From contig NZ_QVQT02000006.1 in the NCBI RefSeq assembly GCF_003428625.2, forward strand, positions 186,001-250,000: a stretch of 64,000 nt of DNA. Reading direction: 5' to 3'. A model generated the notes under the pieces. The model ran no database searches. It was not told the DNA's origin and worked only from the letters and a program-made list of their open reading frames with translations. A program made the position numbers and the translations under genes. This DNA is from Paracidobacterium acidisoli. Lineage in GTDB: Bacteria; Acidobacteriota; Terriglobia; Terriglobales; Acidobacteriaceae. Positions 3,406-32,910 of the stretch are shown one piece after another; positions within the stretch are counted from its first letter, which is position 1, and each line of letters begins with the position of its first letter.

Positions 3406-3888
3406 ATGCCTGCCGAAAATACTGTGGTGCGTGACACGCTGATCGAATTTATGCGCGGCGGCAGTGCGCACGCAGACCTGAATACCGCTCTCGATCACTT
3501 CCCCGCGCACCATTACGGCACGAAGCCGGAGGGCGCGGCGCACAGCGCATGGCAGCAACTGGAGCATATCCGCATTGCGCTGCACGATCTGCTGGATTTT
3601 TCCGTGAACCCGAAGTACGTCGCGCTGAAGTGGCCGGACGACTACTGGCCGGCGGAGGACGGACCGGCGGGCGCGGAGGAATGGCACGCCTCGATCCGCG
3701 CGCTCAAAGCGGACCTGGCGGAGTTCGAGAAGCTGATCCGCAATCCGCAGACGAATCTGTATGCGGCGATTCCCTGGGGCGATGGACAGACCATACTGCG
3801 CGAAGTGCTGCTGGCCGGCGACCACACCAGCTACCACACGGGTGAGATTGTCGCGCTGCGGCAGCAGCTTGGCATCTGGAAGCCGTAG
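3406..3888 (+). CDS. DinB-like four-helix metal-binding protein
   Basis: A 160-residue protein with the features of the DinB/YfiT-like superfamily: histidines in the second helix (LEHIRIALHD, about residues 52-60) and a distal pair in GDHTSYHTGEIV (about 138-149). The superfamily includes metal-dependent thiol transferases and many uncharacterised stress proteins, so no reaction can be assigned. GGAGG at 3396-3400 supports ATG 3406. It is downstream of murA on the same strand, but nothing ties it to cell-wall synthesis. A second, divergent DinB-like gene lies at 43.6 kb. Confidence 0.75.
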   Translation: MPAENTVVRDTLIEFMRGGSAHADLNTALDHFPAHHYGTKPEGAAHSAWQQLEHIRIALHDLLDFSVNPKYVALKWPDDYWPAEDGPAGAEEWHASIRALKADLAEFEKLIRNPQTNLYAAIPWGDGQTILREVLLAGDHTSYHTGEIVALRQQLGIWKP

Positions 3889-20722: not shown

Positions 20723-22039
20723 ATGAAAAGCGCACCGGTCTCTTTTCCTGCCATAGAGCCGGCCGGATACAGCCTTCATGACGATCCCCGATGGCAGCTT
20801 GTTCAGCGGATCGTCGCCAGCCGCCAGTTTGCGCGAGCGCCGCTGCTGTCAAAGTTTCTGCTGTTTGTGTGCACGGAAATGCTGCAGGGGCGCCAGGAAG
20901 AAATCAGCGAATACCAGATCGGCGTGACGGTCTTCGACCGGCCGCACGGCTACCGCACGGTCGAAGACAATATTGTCCGCAACTATGCCCGGCAGCTGCG
21001 AAAACGGCTGGCGGAGTACTTTGCCGCCGACGGGCTTGAAGAGTCCTTTCGGGTGGAGATTCCGCTGGGAGGGTATGTTCCGGCCTTTGCCGGGCGCGAG
21101 CCGCGGCAGCCGAAGGTCGTTTCCGGCCCGTTAGCGGTAACGGAGAGCCAGGAGGATGCGGCGGAGGCGGTCCGGAGCGGGGGCTGGCGGAAGTGGGCGC
21201 TCGGCGGGGGCGTGCTGCTGGCGTACTCGGCGATCCTGGTATGGGCAACGATGGTGGTGCGGGCGCGGTATCCGGAGACGCACCTGCCGCCGGAGCCTTC
21301 GCAGCTTTTGTGGTCGGCGATGTTCCACTCGCCGCTGAGCACGTTTATTGTTCCGGCCGACTGCGGCTTCAACATGATTGAAGACCTTTCGCACCGGCAG
21401 ATCTCGCTGGCGGATTATCTGAATGGAGATTTTCTGACGCAGCCGCTGCCGGCGATGGACGAACACAGCTCGAACGATCTGCGCACGCAGGAGTACACGA
21501 GCTTTGTGGACCTGGAGATCGTGTCGGCGCTGTCGCGGCTTTCGGAGATCGATCCGCGGCGGCTCTTTCTGCGCTTTCCGCGCGATCTGCGGCTGGACGA
21601 CCTGAAGCGCGGGAACGTGGTGCTGATCGGATCGCTGGGGAGCGACCCCTGGGCCGGCGTGGCGCAGAAGAACATGAACTTTAAGATCGATTACCGCAAC
21701 GAGATGCAGCAGGCGTGGGTGATCAACACCAAACCCCGGCCGGGCGAGGCGGCGGAGTACGTGAGCCACTGGAACGAGCCGGTACACCAGACGTATGCGG
21801 TGATCGCCTACATTCCTAACCTGAGCGGCAACGGGCACATTCTGCTGGTGGAAGGGCTGGACGTGGCAGGGACGCAGGCGGCGGCGGAGATGCTGCTGAG
21901 AAAAGACGCGCTGGAGACGGTGCTGCACGCGGCATCGCTGCCGGAGGGCGGACTGAAGCCGTTCGAGATTCTGCTGCAGTCGACGAGCATCGAGTCGAAC
22001 GCGGCGAATACGCAGATCATTGCCAGCCGGATCGGCTGA
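20723..22039 (+). CDS. Winged-helix-like DNA-binding protein with one transmembrane helix
   Basis: A 438-residue protein of an architecture seen often beside acidobacterial TonB receptors. Residues 25-122 form a helical domain (RAPLLSKFLLFVCTEML; EYQIGVTVFDRP; EDNIVRNYARQLRKRL) ending with a beta-wing VEIPLGGYVP, which I read as DNA-binding. A membrane helix spans about 157-179, leaving a 255-residue C-terminal domain that would be periplasmic, as in ToxR-like one-component sensors. GGGAG at 20711 supports ATG 20723. It probably senses an envelope signal and controls the divergent receptor; this is inferred. Confidence 0.7.
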   Translation: MKSAPVSFPAIEPAGYSLHDDPRWQLVQRIVASRQFARAPLLSKFLLFVCTEMLQGRQEEISEYQIGVTVFDRPHGYRTVEDNIVRNYARQLRKRLAEYFAADGLEESFRVEIPLGGYVPAFAGREPRQPKVVSGPLAVTESQEDAAEAVRSGGWRKWALGGGVLLAYSAILVWATMVVRARYPETHLPPEPSQLLWSAMFHSPLSTFIVPADCGFNMIEDLSHRQISLADYLNGDFLTQPLPAMDEHSSNDLRTQEYTSFVDLEIVSALSRLSEIDPRRLFLRFPRDLRLDDLKRGNVVLIGSLGSDPWAGVAQKNMNFKIDYRNEMQQAWVINTKPRPGEAAEYVSHWNEPVHQTYAVIAYIPNLSGNGHILLVEGLDVAGTQAAAEMLLRKDALETVLHAASLPEGGLKPFEILLQSTSIESNAANTQIIASRIG

Positions 22040-22071
22040 GCGCGGTCTGCTGGCGATGGAGTAAAGAAAAG

Positions 22072-22153
22072 CCGGCCGGTTCGGATCGAACGATCGGTTT
22101 GATCGCTGCCTTCGATCTTTTTCGATCGCTGTTTTTCGATCGTTCCCGGCCGG
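22072..22153. terminator. Large inverted repeat between convergent genes
   Basis: CCGGCCGG plus GAACGATCG (22072-22096, with an 8-base interruption) is matched by CGATCGTTC directly followed by CCGGCCGG (22137-22153). The 40-base centre contains further GATCG copies. It lies between the convergent 20723-22039 and 22161-23528 genes and could end both transcripts, although there is no clear T-run. Confidence 0.45.
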
Positions 22154-22160
22154 GCTGAGG

Positions 22161-23528
22161 TTAGTGCGAGCCGGCGCTCTCCAGCTCGCGGATGTATTCG
22201 ATGACGGCCTCGCTCCAGCCATCGATGTGGGTCCACGCGCCATAGCCGACACCGTTGCGATAGCTGGCCACGTTGATGATGTAGCCGGTTCCGCGAGGAG
22301 CGGGCACGCGGTCGTGCGACTGCTCATCGGTGATGACGATGATGCGGTCGTACGGCTCCCGGTTTTTGCCGCACGTCTCGTCGAGCCGGCTCAGCGCCAG
22401 ACCGAGGTTGGTGCCGCTGTGCTCCTGGCTCGTCTCGAGCGCATCGCGCAGAGCGAAGCCGCGACGCGCAGGCACCTGCTTCAGCTCGTCGGAGAAGGTA
22501 AAGATGCTGATCTCCTCCGCGATCTCGCGCAGCAGGATGGCGAGGCCGTATGCGGCGTCGGTGCGGTACATCTCCGACCGCTGCGAGAGCGGCGCGACCA
22601 TGCTGCCGGAGACGTCGACCAGCAGCGCGGTGCGGCCGGCGAGCTTCGCGTGCGCGCCCGGCTTCTCCGTGCTGACCGAGCGGAACATCGCCCGCTCCAG
22701 AGCCTCTTCCCACTGCGGCGCGTAACGCGCGGCGGCCAGGAAGCGGAACGGGAGCACCCAGCCGGTGTTCATCGCGCTGAGCGCGGCGAGCACCAGATCC
22801 TCGCCGACGCCCGCCTCCTTCATGTTGCGAAGGTTGCGGAGCAGAGCGAGCGCGCCCAGCCTGCGCTCGGTGAGCAGGCGCTCCCAGGTGGCGAGGCGGT
22901 CGCCGCCGGTGGAGAGCGCGACCTCCCAGGTATCGGGCGTGGCCAGCTTACCGTCGATGAGGCGCTTCCACACCTCGGCCTGCTCGGCATCGCGAGGACG
23001 CGCGTGGCAGAGGAAGAGGACGTCGCGCAGACGCACGGCTCCGGCACGGTCGTACTTGGCCAGAGCGTACTCGCCGAAGCGGGGGAAGGCCGCGGCGAGC
23101 CCCTTCTTCACCTGGCCGGAGAGCGGCGCGCGGCCGCCGGCCCAGTAGAGGGCGACGAACTCGGAGAGCTCGTCGGCACGCTGGATGACGCGGGCGAGCG
23201 TCTCAGCCACGAGACCGCGGTGCGTGGCGTGGCGCGCCATCTCGCGCACGAGCAGCAGCGGCGCATGGCGCAGCTTCATCTGCTCGCGGGCCTCGATGGC
23301 AAGCGCGGCGACACGGGCCGGCTCGACGGCTGGAACAAGGCCGCCGATGCGGCCGGCGATCTCGACGCCATCCTCGTAGAACTGGCTCTCCCAGAGCATG
23401 CAGGTGAGGATGCTGCGGCGCAGCATCTGCTCCGGCGTAAGCGTGACGGCCGGCGCGCCTTCATGCGTACGGAAGAGATTTCGCGCCGGTGCCGGATGGC
23501 CCAGCTTCAGAATATTCAAACGCGCCAT
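22161..23528 (-). CDS. rsr: Ro60 ortholog Rsr (TROVE plus VWA domains)
   Basis: A 455-residue protein with the Ro60 architecture. Residues about 15-290 form the helical TROVE ring domain (TPEQMLRRSILTCMLWE; FVALYW; LLRNLRNMKEAGV), and 295-455 a von Willebrand A domain whose MIDAS is intact: D305-x-S307-x-S309 in LLVDVSGSM, T373 in SGTNLG and D401 in ITDEQ. Ro60 rings bind misfolded RNA and Y RNAs; in bacteria they couple Y RNA to the exonuclease PNPase or to RNA-repair genes. AAAGGAG before ATG 23528 supports the start. Y RNA-like elements lie directly upstream on the same strand. No rtcB/rtcA is visible nearby; pnp is 7 kb away. Confidence 0.9.
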   Translation of the reverse strand: MARLNILKLGHPAPARNLFRTHEGAPAVTLTPEQMLRRSILTCMLWESQFYEDGVEIAGRIGGLVPAVEPARVAALAIEAREQMKLRHAPLLLVREMARHATHRGLVAETLARVIQRADELSEFVALYWAGGRAPLSGQVKKGLAAAFPRFGEYALAKYDRAGAVRLRDVLFLCHARPRDAEQAEVWKRLIDGKLATPDTWEVALSTGGDRLATWERLLTERRLGALALLRNLRNMKEAGVGEDLVLAALSAMNTGWVLPFRFLAAARYAPQWEEALERAMFRSVSTEKPGAHAKLAGRTALLVDVSGSMVAPLSQRSEMYRTDAAYGLAILLREIAEEISIFTFSDELKQVPARRGFALRDALETSQEHSGTNLGLALSRLDETCGKNREPYDRIIVITDEQSHDRVPAPRGTGYIINVASYRNGVGYGAWTHIDGWSEAVIEYIRELESAGSH

Positions 23529-23617
23529 AGTGTTTCTCCTTTCGCGACTTAGCCCGGCTTTTTCTTCGGCTAAGTGCCGCTTACTTTTGTTTGGCCAGGT
23601 TCGGCCTATTTTCGTTA

Positions 23618-23752
23618 TCGCCGGGGAATAAGCGGCTGCGGATGTGTTGCCGAGCTACGCGGGCTTTCGCTCGCGGCAGGGATCGAACCTGCACCTCCGC
23701 GTTTTAAGCGGCGCTCTGCCGTTGAAGTATCCGCAGCCTGCGCCACCGGCGA
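23618..23752 (-). ncRNA. Y RNA-like element 1 with a tRNA-mimic domain opened in the D loop
   Basis: Outer helix TCGCCGG/CCGGCGA, an internal loop with TGGCGCA on the 5' side and GCTTATTCC on the 3' side, then a perfect 10-bp helix GGCTGCGGAT/ATCCGCAGCC (23729-23738 with 23634-23643). The inner domain reads, in order: 3' half of a D arm (GGCAGAGC), an anticodon-like arm (CCGC-TTAAAAC-GCGG), a canonical T arm (GCAGG-TTCGATC-CCTGC), an acceptor-like 7-bp helix with one mismatch capped by GAAA, then TAGCTC, which pairs with GAGC as a D stem. So the tRNA mimic is circularly permuted with the Y stem entering through the D loop. The element ends 89 bases before rsr. Confidence 0.8.
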
Positions 23753-23784
23753 GGGTTGGGGTTGCGGCGTTCTGTGAGAAGACC

Positions 23785-23850
23785 GGGGCTGAAGCCCTTT
23801 GTGTTTCGGGCTGCAGTCACCGGGCTGAAGCCCGGTGCTTCTACCGGAAA
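23785..23850. repeat. Two REP-like hairpins inside the Y RNA array
   Basis: GGGGCTGAAGCCC (23785-23797) and CCGGGCTGAAGCCCGG (23820-23835), followed by TGCTTCTACCGG, belong to the intergenic hairpin family present at 15, 25 and 27 kb. Here they lie between element 1 and the 109-residue reading frame. Confidence 0.75.
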
Positions 23851-23890
23851 ACTTCTCTTCTTCGCCAATATTGCCTGGGGGTCCGGCGGA

Positions 23891-24220
23891 CTACTCTTCG
23901 TCTTCCGCCGAAACCTCGGTTTCTGTTTTGTCCGCCGTGGTTACGCTGGTGCGGACCTTGAAGCCGACCGGTTTGAGGGATGCGGAAGGCCGGACATCAA
24001 TAGCCAACTTCTCCATCTGATCCCAGTCAGGGCGGTTCTTATCGCCATAGGCCGAACATTCGTACACCTTAAACGGGAGCGCGATGTTCGGATGCACGTC
24101 GGTACAGATCACCAGCATCTCCGACTCGCGGTATCCGGTGATGATCTGAGCGGAGAGGCAGGTGCCGCACAGCGATACCGAACCTTTCGGCGTTCCACCT
24201 TTCACGTATAAGTTGCCCAT
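23891..24220 (-). CDS. Unrecognised four-cysteine protein encoded within the Y RNA array
   Basis: A 109-residue soluble protein. Cysteines C18 and C21 (LCGTC), C39 (VICTD) and C55 (YECSAY) could bind one zinc ion as a small treble-clef or ribbon. Other notable stretches are LPFKVYEC, DKNRPDWDQME and a highly acidic C-terminus (SAEDEE). GAGGATGTT before ATG 24220 gives a good ribosome site. It lies between Y RNA-like elements 2 and 1, on the same strand as rsr, so co-transcription is likely. I do not recognise the family; a role in handling the RNAs or the Ro particle is speculation from position. Confidence 0.7.
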   Translation of the reverse strand: MGNLYVKGGTPKGSVSLCGTCLSAQIITGYRESEMLVICTDVHPNIALPFKVYECSAYGDKNRPDWDQMEKLAIDVRPSASLKPVGFKVRTSVTTADKTETEVSAEDEE

Positions 24221-24257
24221 AACATCCTCTTCTACCCGGAAGTGCCGGGAAGTTAGT

Positions 24258-24389
24258 GACCGGGGAACGAGCGAAAACGGTCTTTGAGGTGCTCTGCCAT
24301 TGAGCTACACGAACTTACGTCCGCGACAGGAATCGAACCTGCATCCACCCGCTTAACAGGCGAAGTATCCGTTCTCTTCACCACCGGCC
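24258..24389 (-). ncRNA. Y RNA-like element 2: circularly permuted tRNA-Asn mimic on a Y stem
   Basis: Outer helix GGCCGG/CCGGTC, the internal loop GGTGGTGAA/TCGTTCC, and an inner 8-bp helix GAGAACGG/CCGTTTTC. Inside, all tRNA helices appear in permuted order: anticodon arm TTCGC-CTGTTAA-GCGGG (anticodon GTT), five-base variable region TGGAT, T arm GCAGG-TTCGATT-CCTGT, acceptor strands CGCGGAC and GTTCGTG joined by a GTAA tetraloop (7 bp, two G.U), then TA and the D arm GCTC-AATGGCA-GAGC with both conserved Gs. The Y stem therefore enters at tRNA position 26. A normal tRNA gene cannot be drawn because the acceptor ends are internal. Confidence 0.85.
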
Positions 24390-24422
24390 GAGATTGTTTC
24401 GAGCACGCATGACGAAAGAAAG

Positions 24423-24582
24423 CACCGGGGAATAGACGAAAAGAGTTCGGAGCCATGGACATCGCGGTACGTTGTGATTCAGGGCTGCGCCCTCGTCCCG
24501 CGATGTATCTGCTCCGGCAGGGTCTTCTTGGCCCTGCTGGTATTTCAGCAGAAGAAGTAACTCTTCTCTTTCGCCACCGGTG
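24423..24582 (-). ncRNA. Y RNA-like element 3 with a non-tRNA inner domain
   Basis: Outer helix CACCGG/CCGGTG, the shared internal loop (GGTGGCGAAA on the 5' side, GTCTATTCC on the 3' side) and a 10-bp helix GAGAAGAGTT/AACTCTTTTC with one G.U. The 85-base interior folds differently from elements 1 and 2: a hairpin CTGCTG..CAGCAG, a possible GGG/CCC helix, and a long rod in which GGAGC pairs with GCTCC, ACATCGCGG pairs perfectly with CCGCGATGT, capped by AGGGC-GCA-GCCCT. I see no T loop or D loop, so it may present a different partner-binding surface. Confidence 0.75.
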
Positions 24583-24589
24583 ACGGCCG

Positions 24590-24605
24590 TATCTGCGCGC
24601 AGATA
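24590..24605. repeat. 16-base perfect palindrome between elements 3 and 4
   Basis: TATCTGCGCGCAGATA is a perfect palindrome. Next to it AGCATG-CGGC-CATGCT (24612-24627) forms a short hairpin. Together they fill the spacer between two Y RNA-like elements and could be an operator, a processing site or a transcription pause. Confidence 0.6.
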
Positions 24606-24643
24606 TGCACGAGCATGCGGCCATGCTTTCTCAGGTCATGTAT

Positions 24644-24714
24644 CACTGAGGGAACAAGCGAAGACAGTACGTTTGCGTGTCAATCGAAGGAACTGCCTTC
24701 TTCGCCACTCAGTG
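24644..24714 (-). ncRNA. Y RNA-like element 4, minimal form
   Basis: A 71-base element: perfect outer helix CACTGAG/CTCAGTG, the shared internal loop (TGGCGAA / GCTTGTTCC) and a 9-bp helix GAAGGCAGT/ACTGTCTTC with one G.U, closed by a loop of about 22 bases beginning TCCTTCGATTGACACG. No larger inner domain is present. It is the most 5' member of the array on the minus strand and resembles a bare Ro-binding stem. Confidence 0.7.
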
Positions 24715-24756
24715 AAAACAGGTTATGCGTGCGATTGCGCAGGATTCGCCGTAAGC

Positions 24757-24849
24757 TTAGCGATGGGAGAGAAACCAGGCCCGGCGGCCGACGCAGGGAT
24801 AGCTTCCCTGTTCCAGCCTGCGCATCGAGTTATGCGTTTTGTAGTTCAT
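24757..24849 (-). CDS. Possible 30-residue leader peptide upstream of the Y RNA array
   Basis: ATG 24849 is preceded, 9 bases upstream, by AGGAG (24859-24863) and opens a 30-codon frame (MNYKTHNSMRRLEQG.., ending SHR) that stops at TAA 24757. The product is basic, with one cysteine and no recognisable motif. The good ribosome site is the only positive evidence. It precedes element 4 by 42 bases on the same strand and could be a leader or chance. Confidence 0.3.
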   Translation of the reverse strand: MNYKTHNSMRRLEQGSYPCVGRRAWFLSHR

Positions 24850-24989
24850 CGGGCGTTTCTCCTGTGCAGAAGTTACTTTGCCACAGGTAGTCTCGAAAAA
24901 GCAACTCTTAGTGAGAACTATTTTTGATTTATTTCCGGAGTAGCTTTGCTTCAGGGAGGTTTTACGCTTCTCGTTCGCGTTTTGGCAGA

Positions 24990-25161
24990 GCCGGGGCTGA
25001 AGCCCCTCTTTCTCACATCTTTATTCGCCGGGCTAAAGCCCGGCGCTTCTACCGGGTCTCGCTGGCGCGAGACGAGAAGTATTCCGTGGCTGAGTCGCAC
25101 AGGGGCTGAAGCCCCTTCTTTGAGAGATCTTTTCGGCACGGCTGAAGCCGTGCCCTGATAC
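24990..25161. repeat. Composite intergenic repeat, copy A (172 bases)
   Basis: Copy A contains, in order, GGGGCTGAAGCCCC, GCCGGGCTAAAGCCCGGC, the linker CGCTTCTACCGGGTC, GCGCGAGACGAGA, TTCCGTGGCT, a second GGGGCTGAAGCCCC and GGCACGGCTGAAGCCGTGCC. The same seven pieces occur in the same order at 26827-27001 with scattered differences, so this is a duplicated composite rather than a chance cluster. Confidence 0.85.
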
Positions 25162-25190
25162 GAAGCGATGATGCCTCCTATCTTTCGCTT

Positions 25191-25252
25191 CCCACCTTAG
25201 CTCCCACCCCGGCGCACGTTGTTCGCCGGGGACCCCGATTCGCGAAGGTGGG
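25191..25252. repeat. CCCACCTT..AAGGTGGG hairpin
   Basis: CCCACCTT (25191-25198) pairs with AAGGTGGG (25245-25252); CCCCGGCG and CGCCGGGG form an inner hairpin. GGGGCACCCGG follows. Related CCCA..TGGG hairpins followed by GGGGCACC occur at 15210-15236 and around 27058-27090. It ends about 50 bases before the phosphodiesterase start. Confidence 0.6.
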
Positions 25253-25302
25253 GCACCCGGACTCCCGGTGTGCCGCGACGAAGAATGCTCTACTCTGGAG
25301 AG

Positions 25303-29359: not shown

Positions 29360-30223
29360 ATGAATCCTTCGCAGGATCGGGCGGGGCTGCGGACGGCGCT
29401 GCTGAGGCAGCCGCTCGGCGCTGTCGGGGTCGCGCTGCTGATTCTTTTCCTGGTGCTGGCGCTGTTTGCGCCCTTCCTCGCGCCGGCCAGTCCGGCGGCG
29501 ATCCATCTGAACGACCGGCTGGCTGCGCCGAGCCACGCGCACTGGTTCGGGACGGACGAGCTGGGGCGGGATATTCTTTCGCGGGCGATTTATGGAGCGA
29601 GAATTTCGCTGACGGTGGCGGTTTCCGTGGTGGGGCTGTCGCTGGCTCTGGGGCTGGTTCTGGGCGGGCTGGCGGGCTTTTACGGCGGCGCGCTGGACAC
29701 GTTTCTCAACATCTTCGTGATGAATGCGTTCCTTTCCCTGCCGGGGATTCTGCTGGCCATTGCCTTTGTGGCCTTCGTGGGGCCGGGGCTGCTGAACCTG
29801 ATTCTGGCCCTGTCGATCGGGGGCTGGGTGGGCTACGCGCGGCTGGTGCGGGCGCAGGTGCTGGCGGCGCGGGAGCGTGAGTTTGTGGAGGCCGCGCGGG
29901 CGCTGGGCGCAAGCGATCTGCGGCTCTTTCTGCGGCACATTCTGCCGAATATTCTGCAGCCTCTGATCGTTCAGTCGGCGATCGGCATGGCGGGAGCGGT
30001 GCTGGCCGAGGCGACACTCAGTTTTCTGGGACTGGGTGTTCCGCCGCCGGCAGCGAGCTGGGGCTCGATGCTGAACGACGCGCGGCCGCACCTGTTCGAC
30101 GCGCCGCATCTGGTGATCTTTCCGGCGATTGCCGTGATGCTGTGCGTGCTGGCCTTCAACTTTATCGGCGATGCGCTGCGCGACTTCCTCGATCCGAGAA
30201 CGAGGATGAGCGTCGGGATATAG
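29360..30223 (+). CDS. ABC transporter permease, DppC/OppC family
   Basis: A 287-residue inner-membrane permease of the peptide/nickel class. The N-terminal OppC_N segment (LLRQPLGAVGVALLILFL) is followed by HWFGTDELGRDILSR and five membrane helices; the EAA loop that contacts the ATPase reads EFVEAARALGASDLRLFLRHILPN. TTG 29345 could add five residues. Its partners (DppB-like permease, ATPases, binding protein) are not next to it, which is unusual for this family. The coding region ends 4 bases before a perfect heptamer repeat. Confidence 0.88.
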   Translation: MNPSQDRAGLRTALLRQPLGAVGVALLILFLVLALFAPFLAPASPAAIHLNDRLAAPSHAHWFGTDELGRDILSRAIYGARISLTVAVSVVGLSLALGLVLGGLAGFYGGALDTFLNIFVMNAFLSLPGILLAIAFVAFVGPGLLNLILALSIGGWVGYARLVRAQVLAAREREFVEAARALGASDLRLFLRHILPNILQPLIVQSAIGMAGAVLAEATLSFLGLGVPPPAASWGSMLNDARPHLFDAPHLVIFPAIAVMLCVLAFNFIGDALRDFLDPRTRMSVGI

Positions 30224-30423: not shown

Positions 30424-32910
30424 TTACTGCGGTCCGCGGCTTCCACCGCCGGCCGGGCCACGTCCACCACCACTACCGGTGCCAGGACCACGGCCGCGGC
30501 GGCGACGGCGTCCACGTCCAGGACCGCCTCCGGAACCACCAGCGGGACGGCGCTCGCCGTTCCCGGCAGCGGCCGGCACTCCGTCGGCACGGTTGAAGTT
30601 GATCTCCTCGCCCTCCTCATCACCCTCTTCGCCGTCTTCGAAGTCGTCGCCGCCTTCGATGGTGATGGTGCTGGCGTTGGAAGAAGGCTGGCGCTCGACC
30701 GGCTCAGGGCGCGGCTGGCGGCGCGGACGCTCCTCGGATGAGGCAGCGACATCGCCCACAGGCGCTTCCTGCGAACCTTCGGCCGCGGGCTGTTCAAGAC
30801 CCAGCTTCTGGCGCTGTTCGCGGATGAGGGCCTTGCGCGAGAGCTTGATGCGGTTGCCCTCGATGCCAAGGACCTTGACCATGACCTGATCGCCTTCACG
30901 CAGCTCGTCCTTGACTTCGCGGACGCGGTGCTCGGCGATTTCGCTGATGTGCAGCAGACCGTCGGTGCCGGGGAAGAGCTCGATGAAGGCGCCGAACTCG
31001 GCCAGGCGAACCACCTTGCCAAGGTAGGTCTTGCCGATTTCAGGGACAGCGGTGAGGTCGTTGATCATGGCGAGCGCCTTCTTCAGGCCTTCCTCGTCGC
31101 TCGACGCCACATTGACGCGGCCGGTGTCGTCCACATCGATCTTGACCTGCGTGGCCTCGATGATGCCGCGGATGGTCTTGCCGCCGGGCCCGATGAGGTC
31201 GCGGATCTTGTCGGTGGGAATCTGCAGGGTGCGGATCTGCGGAGCGTACCTCGACTTTTCGGTGCGGGGTCCGATGAGGGCCGCGTCCATCTTGTCGAGC
31301 AGGAAGAGCCGGCCGCGGCGCGCCTGTTCGAGGGCTTCGCGCATGATCTGGAAGGTGATGCCGGTGATCTTGATGTCCATCTGCAGCGCGGTGATGCCGT
31401 TGCGCGTGCCGGCCACCTTGAAGTCCATATCGCCGTAGTGGTCTTCGGCTCCGGCGATGTCGGTCAGGATGGCGTAGCTCTCGTCTTCCTTGACGAGGCC
31501 CATGGCCACACCGGCCACAGCCGCCTTCAGGGGAATGCCGGCATCCATGAGCGCGAGGCTGGCGCCGCAGACCGAGGCCATGGACGAGGAGCCGTTGGAC
31601 TCGAGGATGTCGGAGACGATACGCAGCGCGTAGGGCGACTCGGCTTCAGAGGGAAGAACGGCGCTGATGGCGCGCTCGGCGAGAGCTCCGTGGCCCACTT
31701 CGCGACGGCCGACGCCGGTCATGCGGCCGACTTCGCCGACCGAGAAGGGCGGGAAGTTATAGTGCAGCATGAAGCGCTTCTTCTGCTCACCTTCGAAGCT
31801 CTCGAGACGCTGAGAGTCATCGTTGGTGCCGAGCGTGGCGGTGACCAGAGCCTGGGTTTCGCCGCGGGTGAAGAGCGCGGAGCCGTGGGTGCGGGGCAGA
31901 ACGCCGGTTTCGATGCTGATGGGGCGAATCTCGTCGAAGGCGCGGCGGTCGGGGCGGACGCGGTCCTTCGTGACCTGCTCGCGGAAGATGCGCTCGCGGA
32001 GGGTCTCGTAGTATGTGGCGAGCTTCTTCTTCGCGGCGGGCTGTTCGGCCTCGGGCAGCTGCTTCAGGCTGGCGGCCAGCTCGTCCCTGATCTGTTTGAC
32101 GAGGGCGTAGCTCTCGGTCTTGGGATGAGTCTTCGTGTCGAGAGCGTCGCTGAGGCGCGCGCCGATCTGCGCTTTGATGGACTCGTAGTAGCCGGTGTCG
32201 AACTCGGGGGCGTTGACGGCGCGCTTCTGTTTGCCGGCCTTCACGACCAGCTCGTCGATCACGGCGACGATCTTCCTGATCTGCTCGTGGCCGAACTCGA
32301 TGGCTCCGAGAACGATCTCTTCGCTGACCTCGGTCGATCCGCTTTCGACCATCACGATGCCGTCGCGGGTGCCGACGACCATGATGTTGATGCTGCTCTC
32401 GCGGCGCTCGGTGTAGGTGGGATTGACGACGAACTCTTCGCCAACGCGGCCGATGCGAACGGCTCCGACGGGACCGGCGAAGGGAATGTCGGACAGAGCG
32501 AGCGCGGCGCTGGCGGCGTTGATGCCGATCACGTCGGGATCGTTTTCCCTGTCGGCGGAGAAGACCAGGGCGATGACCTGGGTCTCATTGCGGAAGCCTT
32601 CGGGAAAGAGCGGGCGGATAGGGCGGTCGATCTGGCGGCTGGTGAGAATCTCACGCTCGCTGGGACGGCCTTCGCGCTTGATGAAGCCGCCGGGGATGCG
32701 TCCGCCGGCGTAGGCGTACTCGCGGTAATCGACGGTGAGGGGGAAGAAGTCGATGCCTTCCTTCGGATCGGGTGAGGCGACAGCGGTTGCCAGCACAACG
32801 GAATCCCCCTGGGTGACAAGGGCGGCGCCGGAGGCCTGCTTGGCCATGCGCCCGGTTTCAAAGCTCAGTCGCCTGCCACCGGCAAGTTCGACGAACACTT
32901 CCTGTTTCAT
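30424..32910 (-). CDS. pnp: Polyribonucleotide nucleotidyltransferase (PNPase)
   Basis: An 828-residue 3'-5' phosphorolytic exonuclease. Two RNase PH domains (about 10-230 and 320-550, with GRIPGGFIKREGRPSERE and the second-core LPRTHGSALFTRGETQ) flank an all-helical linker; KH (PGGKTIRGI) and S1 (GKVVRLAEFGAFIELFPG) domains follow at about 560-700. A further 100 residues form an acidic then Gly/Arg-rich tail (GRGRRRRRGRG), absent from the E. coli enzyme. rpsO lies upstream, the classic pair. In other bacteria PNPase forms a complex with Rsr and Y RNA, relevant to the rsr locus 7 kb away. Confidence 0.97.
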   Translation of the reverse strand: MKQEVFVELAGGRRLSFETGRMAKQASGAALVTQGDSVVLATAVASPDPKEGIDFFPLTVDYREYAYAGGRIPGGFIKREGRPSEREILTSRQIDRPIRPLFPEGFRNETQVIALVFSADRENDPDVIGINAASAALALSDIPFAGPVGAVRIGRVGEEFVVNPTYTERRESSINIMVVGTRDGIVMVESGSTEVSEEIVLGAIEFGHEQIRKIVAVIDELVVKAGKQKRAVNAPEFDTGYYESIKAQIGARLSDALDTKTHPKTESYALVKQIRDELAASLKQLPEAEQPAAKKKLATYYETLRERIFREQVTKDRVRPDRRAFDEIRPISIETGVLPRTHGSALFTRGETQALVTATLGTNDDSQRLESFEGEQKKRFMLHYNFPPFSVGEVGRMTGVGRREVGHGALAERAISAVLPSEAESPYALRIVSDILESNGSSSMASVCGASLALMDAGIPLKAAVAGVAMGLVKEDESYAILTDIAGAEDHYGDMDFKVAGTRNGITALQMDIKITGITFQIMREALEQARRGRLFLLDKMDAALIGPRTEKSRYAPQIRTLQIPTDKIRDLIGPGGKTIRGIIEATQVKIDVDDTGRVNVASSDEEGLKKALAMINDLTAVPEIGKTYLGKVVRLAEFGAFIELFPGTDGLLHISEIAEHRVREVKDELREGDQVMVKVLGIEGNRIKLSRKALIREQRQKLGLEQPAAEGSQEAPVGDVAASSEERPRRQPRPEPVERQPSSNASTITIEGGDDFEDGEEGDEEGEEINFNRADGVPAAAGNGERRPAGGSGGGPGRGRRRRRGRGPGTGSGGGRGPAGGGSRGPQ

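Follow-up and report, generated by a model that had tools for sequence, protein, structure and literature searches.

An ordered array of Y RNA-like elements with a shared covarying scaffold and mostly tRNA-like predicted heads upstream of rsr in Paracidobacterium acidisoli

The analyzed stretch of DNA, 64,000 nucleotides (nt) of Paracidobacterium acidisoli (contig NZ_QVQT02000006.1, positions 186,001–250,000; hereafter, the window), carries on its minus strand rsr, the gene of a Ro60/TROVE protein, and, upstream of it on the same strand, an array of four Y RNA-like elements, E1–E4. The array is real: its members share a scaffold that covaries across relatives, belong to distinct classes, and are linked to rsr; the heads carried by the scaffold show tRNA-like geometry, and in some relatives there are links to the genes rtcB and rtcA and to tRNA arrays. 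We read the locus, with a probability of about 0.7, as a set of interchangeable RNA adaptors of Ro60, made of one handle and different heads and tied to tRNA surveillance or repair. The order on the minus strand is promoter-like element, 30-codon open reading frame (ORF), E1, E2, E3, ORF109 (a conserved small four-cysteine protein), E4, and rsr (Table 1).

The four minus-strand elements, proposed in an earlier note made from the sequence alone, were recovered by a blind rule (at least five Watson–Crick closing pairs and TGGYGM ... RTTCC) applied to both strands of the 64 kb; the rest of the output is one composite of two of E1–E4 and one unrelated site (29839–30047, plus strand). Upstream of rsr, a looser rule with at least four closing pairs yields 92 elements across 44 loci (the window and 43 loci fetched for comparison), as against 0–3 (mean, 1.7) in ten dinucleotide-preserving shuffles. 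A stricter finder adds the second stem and UNCUUC (one mismatch permitted); since it demands UNCUUC, the presence of this motif in its output is not independent evidence. In 88 loci (81 deduplicated rsr loci including the window, L106 and L107, four phages, and one plasmid), the stricter finder detects 230 elements upstream of rsr, none on the opposite strand (671 kb), and one downstream of rsr, where the sequence covers only part of the 88 loci; the loci with G handles contain almost no sequence past the rsr start, hence, the downstream control is partial. At least one element is present in 79 of the 88 loci, at least two in 67, at least three in 48, and at least four in 25, the maximum per locus being six by the stricter finder and seven by the first rule. 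More than one Y RNA per rsr is therefore the norm in these loci, and the array, which the earlier note had considered exceptional for its four members, is not; arrays are also seen in phages. Deduplication by an identical 100-base stretch leaves related species in the sample, some loci have short upstream sequence, and one set of loci was found via peptide patterns of the window's own Rsr, which biases the search toward close relatives. The hosts with elements include Acidobacteria, Bradyrhizobium, Asticcacaulis, a Hyphomonadaceae bacterium, a Deinococcus plasmid, and phages; plasmid P2 of D. gobiensis has two elements with the same scaffold upstream of rsr. Bryocella elongata DSM 22489 (locus L011), a cultured relative, has an array of this type as well.

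Alignments of three classes reveal a common architecture: a closing stem is followed by an unpaired U, two G residues that pair with the two C residues of RUUCC, an internal loop, a second stem, and UNCUUC. The paired G residues are those of GGYGMA, and a bulge of a single U precedes this GG/CC pairing, the longer motif being U-bulge-GGYGMAG. Both loop motifs had been described correctly before, while this pairing and UNCUUC had been missed; UNCUUC is also present in elements picked without requiring it. Changes on both sides of a pair are seen for 15 of 17 pairs in the short class (alignment A3, 44 of 48 short elements), 25 of 40 in the E2 class (A2, all 27 elements), and 20 of 34 in the E3 class (A4, all 18 elements). 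Alignment A5, with 14 of 34 elements at the E4 position, was aligned only, the pair counts covering A2–A4; members of A2–A5 were picked by length, position, and eye. The closing-stem cells are 100% paired, with covariation, in A2, A3, and A4, and the explicit structures of the three classes have 91–97% of their cells paired. None of 500 shuffles matches the observed values on any measure, and sliding the partner by 1–3 bases reduces pairing to 37–54%, a control over which the counted structures are favored, as they were derived from the same alignments. The closing stem and the second stem covary strongly across relatives, in agreement with the earlier proposal that structure rather than sequence is conserved and that the shared stem should be kept in related genomes.

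To characterize the linkage to rsr, 298 genomes were surveyed, 54 with an rsr match (E ≤ 1e-60) and 244 without. Model R1 (an RNA model of the short class) has matches in 50 of the 54 genomes with rsr and in five of the 244 without; for model R2 (E2 class), the respective numbers are 43 and one. In line with the earlier description, the elements are Y RNA-like and linked to rsr, and the matches of new models scanned across genomes, a check suggested in the earlier note, are concentrated in genomes with rsr. The only genome without rsr matched by R2 is G225, where the array is at a contig end. R2 matches exceed 110 bits in 24 of 44 genomes; the weaker ones include other classes, because the handle is shared.

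The rsr loci of three named phages have three to five elements each, and that of crAss001 has none by the stricter finder. Of 19 rsr loci on IMG/VR contigs (L137 and L138 being similar to each other), 17 have elements by R1, always on the strand of rsr and numbering up to six per locus, and the stricter finder finds 22 upstream elements in 11 of these loci, two downstream, and none on the opposite strand. A blastn search of phages for a lone array-type Y RNA gave no match. Three phage records annotate a tRNA directly upstream of rsr; the annotated tRNAs of phages 10KY502B and Gurke fall inside Y RNA elements (L110:2816–2883 and L112:3769–3843) and are probably mis-annotated. As a separate observation, a permuted tmRNA (RF04321, 57.7 bits vs. 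the cut-off of 47) is seen in a Brevundimonas phage (321 kb) at L112:7345–7690.

Inside the shared handle, the elements carry different domains; this had been recognized before, although the tRNA identity of both E3 and E4 had been overlooked. The short class (about 70 nt), represented in the window by E1, is a minimal RNA. A T-arm-only class (about 85–112 nt) is found in relatives such as L068 and L046 and is not seen in the window. The E2 class (about 150–190 nt) has a conserved inner hairpin with the consensus GGGACGGGGGCGTAGTCCCGAAGCACAAGGTTCC, 16 of 23 inner pairs covarying; E2 itself has no match in Rfam up to E = 5. E3 is permuted in the manner of YrlA, with the order T-arm, acceptor-like hairpin, D-arm, as is its class. 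The search with the YrlA model (RF02553), suggested in the earlier note, matches E3 at 39.5 bits (E = 1.9e-6), under the gathering score of 69, and gives no match for E1, E2, and E4 up to E = 5. E4 has a T-arm, an acceptor-like hairpin, and a split D-stem, GAGC before and GCTC after, and its unconstrained minimum-energy fold is a four-arm cloverleaf opened in the D-loop. ARAGORN calls tRNA-Leu inside E3 and tRNA-Phe inside E4. Judged by sequence and predicted fold, E3 and E4 are circularly permuted tRNA mimics, and the heads appear mostly tRNA-like. A search of the 230 elements for the D-loop-opened cloverleaf returned 28 rows, with GAGC/GCTC and TA in only four (window E4, L026 at 507, L088, and L107); the other 24 were not counted, as we attribute them to chance or to different pairings. 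The succession short, E2, E3, E4 recurs, e.g., in L068, L046, L051, and L082, with an extra T-arm-only element between the short and the E2 elements in L068 and L046.

Anticodon-arm-like hairpins directly after UNCUUC had escaped the earlier note, as had the conserved four-cysteine ORF between E3 and E4. A canonical loop (7 nt, with a pyrimidine at position 32, U33, the triplet, A37, and A or C at position 38) is present in 55 of the 230 elements, compared with a summed shuffle mean of about 0.8. Because this null is a composition shuffle that takes no account of relatedness, distinct stem-loops were counted too: there are 34 distinct canonical stem-loops in 37 loci, with many triplets, GUN accounting for 12 of the 34. 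Without the loop rule, the 7-nt size shows the only clear excess (62 vs. 11.2 expected); 9-nt loops are seen 19 times (12.2 expected), and the remaining sizes are near or under the null. Among 55 distinct stem-loops collected without the loop rule, 37 have U33, 44 have A37, and 29 have G34. In class I tRNAs, 10 nt separate the end of the anticodon loop from the T-stem. The corresponding gap in the 26 cases with a T-arm behind the loop is 10 nt in 17 and 9 nt in five, no spacing null having been run for these counts. In the short class, the anticodon-like stem has 79.6% of cells paired, and two of its four pairs covary. As for the window, CGC-CTGTTAA-GCG stands before the T-arm of E3 with a spacing of 10 and is possibly anticodon-arm-like, and CCGC-TTAAAAC-GCGG in E4 has a spacing of 8.

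Links to tRNA genes and RNA repair are seen in some relatives. The fetched sequence of eight distinct rsr loci contains rtcB (L007, L009, L013, L029, L034, L035, L041, and L066); rtcA is present in L013 and, directly upstream of the array, in L123. As the loci with G handles cover the upstream side only, these counts are lower bounds. Away from rsr, lone short-class Y RNAs (R1) stand among tRNA genes in seven places in six genomes, with 8–25 tRNAs per stretch; in six of these places, the Y RNA has a tRNA-Gln gene immediately on either side. In four of the seven, rtcB is directly behind the tRNA run that follows the Y RNA, and in three of these one more tRNA follows rtcB. One of the six genomes, G181, lacks an rsr match at the threshold applied. 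R1 gave no match in six RtcB regions from plasmids of Proteobacteria.

If the locus is indeed a set of interchangeable adaptors, the shared handle (closing stem, U bulge with GG/CC, internal loop, second stem, and UNCUUC) most likely docks on Rsr. E1 would be a short RNA of a class often ending in an anticodon-arm-like hairpin, E2 would present a structured domain peculiar to its own class, and a change of RNA would change the partner to which Rsr is linked. By analogy with the Deinococcus RYPER, PNPase may be tethered by the tRNA-like heads, and the tRNA parts suggest further tRNA-handling partners, such as nucleases and modification or repair enzymes. The simplest extension of the known systems would be several adaptors serving one Rsr, each recruiting a different tRNA-handling partner, and under stress their likely job would be to monitor, degrade, or repair damaged tRNAs. 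That the Y RNAs are transcribed and bound by Rsr, which partners they choose, and what they do is inferred, and so are the "cargo domains" and "alternative adaptors" of the earlier note.

Several observations weigh against adaptors tied to tRNA surveillance or repair. Nine of the 88 loci have no element by the stricter finder, two of them, L062 and L075, having one each by the first rule. The YrlA matches in the window and in relatives are all under the Rfam gathering score. The anticodon-like stem of the E3 class has 89.9% of cells paired, with only one of five pairs covarying. Window E1 keeps the loop TTGACAC on a broken anticodon-like stem, and the minimum-energy fold of window E3 favors another local hairpin, which is why E3 is absent from the tally of distinct stem-loops; both weaken the claim of anticodon arms for this genome, not for the group. 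A sigma-70 promoter scan found no site, and no consensus promoter was found. RtcB has no match in the window's genome (rtcA was not searched for), and no RNA repair operon was recognized there. On the strand of the array, a PNPase gene (approximately 31531–32877, minus strand) is located about 7 kb farther upstream; it was rejected as a part of the locus, as in 14 other genomes pnp is on another contig or hundreds of kb away.

The main rival is that the Y RNAs act as decoys or sensors for tRNA-attacking enzymes: they would display different tRNA parts (anticodon arm, T-arm, D-arm), and, instead of guiding RNA decay, the Rsr complexes would compete with anticodon nucleases or with enzymes that modify tRNA, or else report on them. 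We consider this possible, if rather unlikely. It fits the canonical anticodon-like loops with their many triplets, the arrays in phages, and the Y RNAs inside tRNA arrays, some with rtcB; moreover, PMC7790460 suggests YrlA as a competitive inhibitor of an anticodon nuclease. However, E2 shows no recognizable tRNA feature, the canonical loop is missing in 175 of the 230 elements (and present in one of 28 in the T-arm-only class), the hairpin is broken in window E1, and the E4-class anticodon arms of relatives are often short-looped. It may tentatively be suggested, again against the odds, that the arrays are a kit of dissected tRNA parts: on one handle, separate RNAs would present an anticodon arm whose anticodon can change, a T-arm, a permuted tRNA of the YrlA type, a four-arm tRNA opened in the D-loop, and a head of non-tRNA type. 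Together these RNAs would be decoys and sensors of tRNA damage, working alongside RtcB/RtcA repair, the tRNA-gene arrays with an embedded lone Y RNA, and the four-cysteine protein as a new partner.

Far less probable is that the structures are cis-acting leaders regulating the rsr and ORF109 mRNA by attenuation or processing, and not free RNAs. The position of E1–E4, all upstream of rsr and on its strand, would agree with this, as would a scan of the minus strand of 22000–25300, in which no terminator-like site was found, and the conserved small ORF and stem with which the unit opens; but elements of the same class stand alone in tRNA arrays without rsr, two viral contigs, L141 and L145, have elements downstream of rsr, the closed terminal stems and tRNA modules suit free RNAs, and the known relatives are described as free Rsr-bound RNAs. 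Despite the ARAGORN calls and the phage annotations, there is hardly any chance that the elements are tRNA genes, whether ordinary or decayed, or copies of a dispersed hairpin repeat, as the Rfam tRNA model (RF00005) gives 20.7 and 18.0 bits in the window, under the gathering cut-off of 29, the T-arm of E3 precedes its D-arm and a loop closes the acceptor-like stem, and R1 has one strong match in the window's own genome, E1, followed by E3 at 23.3 bits.

Table 1. Features of the rsr locus in the window, and short-class Y RNAs embedded in tRNA arrays of other genomes.
Feature	Coordinates	Strand	Basis
rsr (Ro60/TROVE protein, 455 amino acids)	22161–23528	minus	ORF and TROVE/vWA domain matches; DVSGSM metal-site motif
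E4, predicted permuted tRNA mimic adjoining rsr	23618–23752	minus	ARAGORN; Rfam; minimum-energy fold
ORF109, conserved four-cysteine small protein between E3 and E4	23891–24220	minus	homologues in relatives
E3, predicted YrlA-type permuted tRNA mimic	24258–24389	minus	ARAGORN; YrlA, 39.5 bits; class alignment
E2, Y RNA-like element of about 160 nt with conserved non-tRNA inner domain	24423–24582	minus	blind rule; model R2, 135 bits
E1, minimal Y RNA-like element, 73 nt including the closing stem	24643–24715	minus	blind rule; model R1, 73.6 bits
Small conserved ORF (MNYKTHNSMRRLEQGSYPCVGRRAWFLSHR), 30 codons, ahead of the array	24757–24849	minus	overlaps possible TGCGCAGG/CCTGCGCA stem
Promoter-like element TTGCTTTTT...TGGCAAAGTAAC ahead of the small ORF	24872–24904	minus	conserved in 10 distinct sequences
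tRNA-embedded short-class Y RNAs	L117:4022–4088, L119:4003–4071, L115:1325–1391, L118:4030–4098, L114, L116, L120		

Rsr has a TROVE domain (PF05731, 50.5 bits vs. the cut-off of 23; best stretch, residues 194–289) and a C-terminal vWA domain (VWA_2, 27.0 bits at the cut-off of 27; vWA_Ro60, 25.8 bits, just under 27.7). In PHROG, it matches the RNA-binding protein family phrog_850 (1.5e-41), and in PDB, the TROVE proteins 9l5y and 9kop (E = 9.9e-30); the further PDB matches up to E = 10 in this single-sequence search are only four unrelated proteins, hence, by such a search Rsr looks like a divergent branch.

Homologues of ORF109 (109 amino acids) are found in 58 of 93 sequences (92 loci and the window, duplicates included), mostly within about 0.9 kb upstream of rsr, with second copies in L051 and L070. 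In alignment A1 (42 of 61 matches; duplicates, weak, and partial ones excluded), C18, C21, C39, G29, A73, G86, and F87 are invariant, and C55 is present in at least 90% of sequences. ORF109 has no match in Pfam, NCBIfam, PHROG, or PDB, nor was one seen in phages; its AlphaFold model, with a mean predicted local distance difference test score of 58, was not used for fold search. By genome, ORF109 is present in 43 of the 54 with rsr and in 13 of the 244 without (two with weak matches), and in view of the latter we reject dependence on Rsr. For the 11 genomes without rsr and with a strong ORF109 match, eight stretches (L093–L100) have neither rsr nor a rule match, the genome of L100 (G068) having a weak R1 match (28.8 bits) directly upstream of ORF109; L101 and L103, also without rsr, have one weak rule match each on the strand opposite to ORF109; and L102 has broken rsr fragments (3444–3871) beside the ORF109 match and two weak Y RNA rule matches, one of them directly upstream of ORF109 and perhaps a relic. 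The ORF109 product may be a zinc-binding partner, yet able to exist without Rsr.

The unit upstream of the array consists of promoter-like TTGC...TGGCAAAGTNAC followed by an ORF of about 30 codons (HNxMRR...RRA), able to form a TGCGYAGG/CCTRCGCA stem; the small ORF and the promoter-like element are kept with ORF109 in at least five loci where rsr was not found (L093, L094, L095, L097, and L099). Short hairpins of the GGGCUUCAGCCC type lie around the array at 23785–23798 and 24993–25006; these resemble a dispersed intergenic repeat.

It is already known that Y RNAs are encoded beside rsr and mimic tRNA: earlier work describes Rsr with Y RNA and PNPase, tRNA-like YrlA, and the rsr-yrlBA-rtcBA operon (PMC8394870, PMC7790460, PMC4726728), the first assembly being named RYPER and YrlA, with its acceptor-like, D-, and T-arms, being a target of modification by tRNA enzymes (PMC8394870), while the Salmonella RNA repair operon responds to cut tRNAs (PMC7790460). 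E3 resembles YrlA in its location beside rsr, its basal stem, and the permuted module; it differs in its sub-threshold score, in standing in an array with three other heads, and perhaps in belonging to a class with an anticodon-arm-like hairpin before the T-arm, and E4, in turn, is opened in the D-loop. The Deinococcus system likewise combines Rsr with a modular Y RNA (tether and gate in RYPER), and D. gobiensis P2 shares the scaffold described here, whereas the heads here are more varied, and PNPase tethering would apply by analogy only. Family RF01053, which we take to be the Rfam family of the Deinococcus Y RNA, has no match in the stretches scanned. The Salmonella operon is similar in that Rsr is encoded together with at least two Y RNAs, and in the RtcB/RtcA link seen in some relatives here; in contrast, the Y RNAs here are upstream of rsr, number up to six or seven in relatives, and include the E2 class, a four-cysteine protein is encoded in many acidobacterial loci, and RtcB was not found in this genome. 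In the literature searched, which lacked the field's central Y RNA papers, we found no report of ordered multi-class arrays, the E2 head, anticodon-arm-like hairpins, the D-loop-opened form, the four-cysteine protein, or Y RNAs in tRNA arrays.

Within the literature covered, the usual picture of bacterial Y RNAs is that of one or two RNAs ending in a tRNA-like part. With conserved arrays in which each member has its own conserved head, the concept of exchangeable Y RNA adaptors can be tested directly within a single organism; the tRNA-spaced anticodon-like loops, together with the Y RNAs of tRNA arrays that have rtcB nearby, suggest damaged tRNA as a common theme and provide concrete candidate partners.

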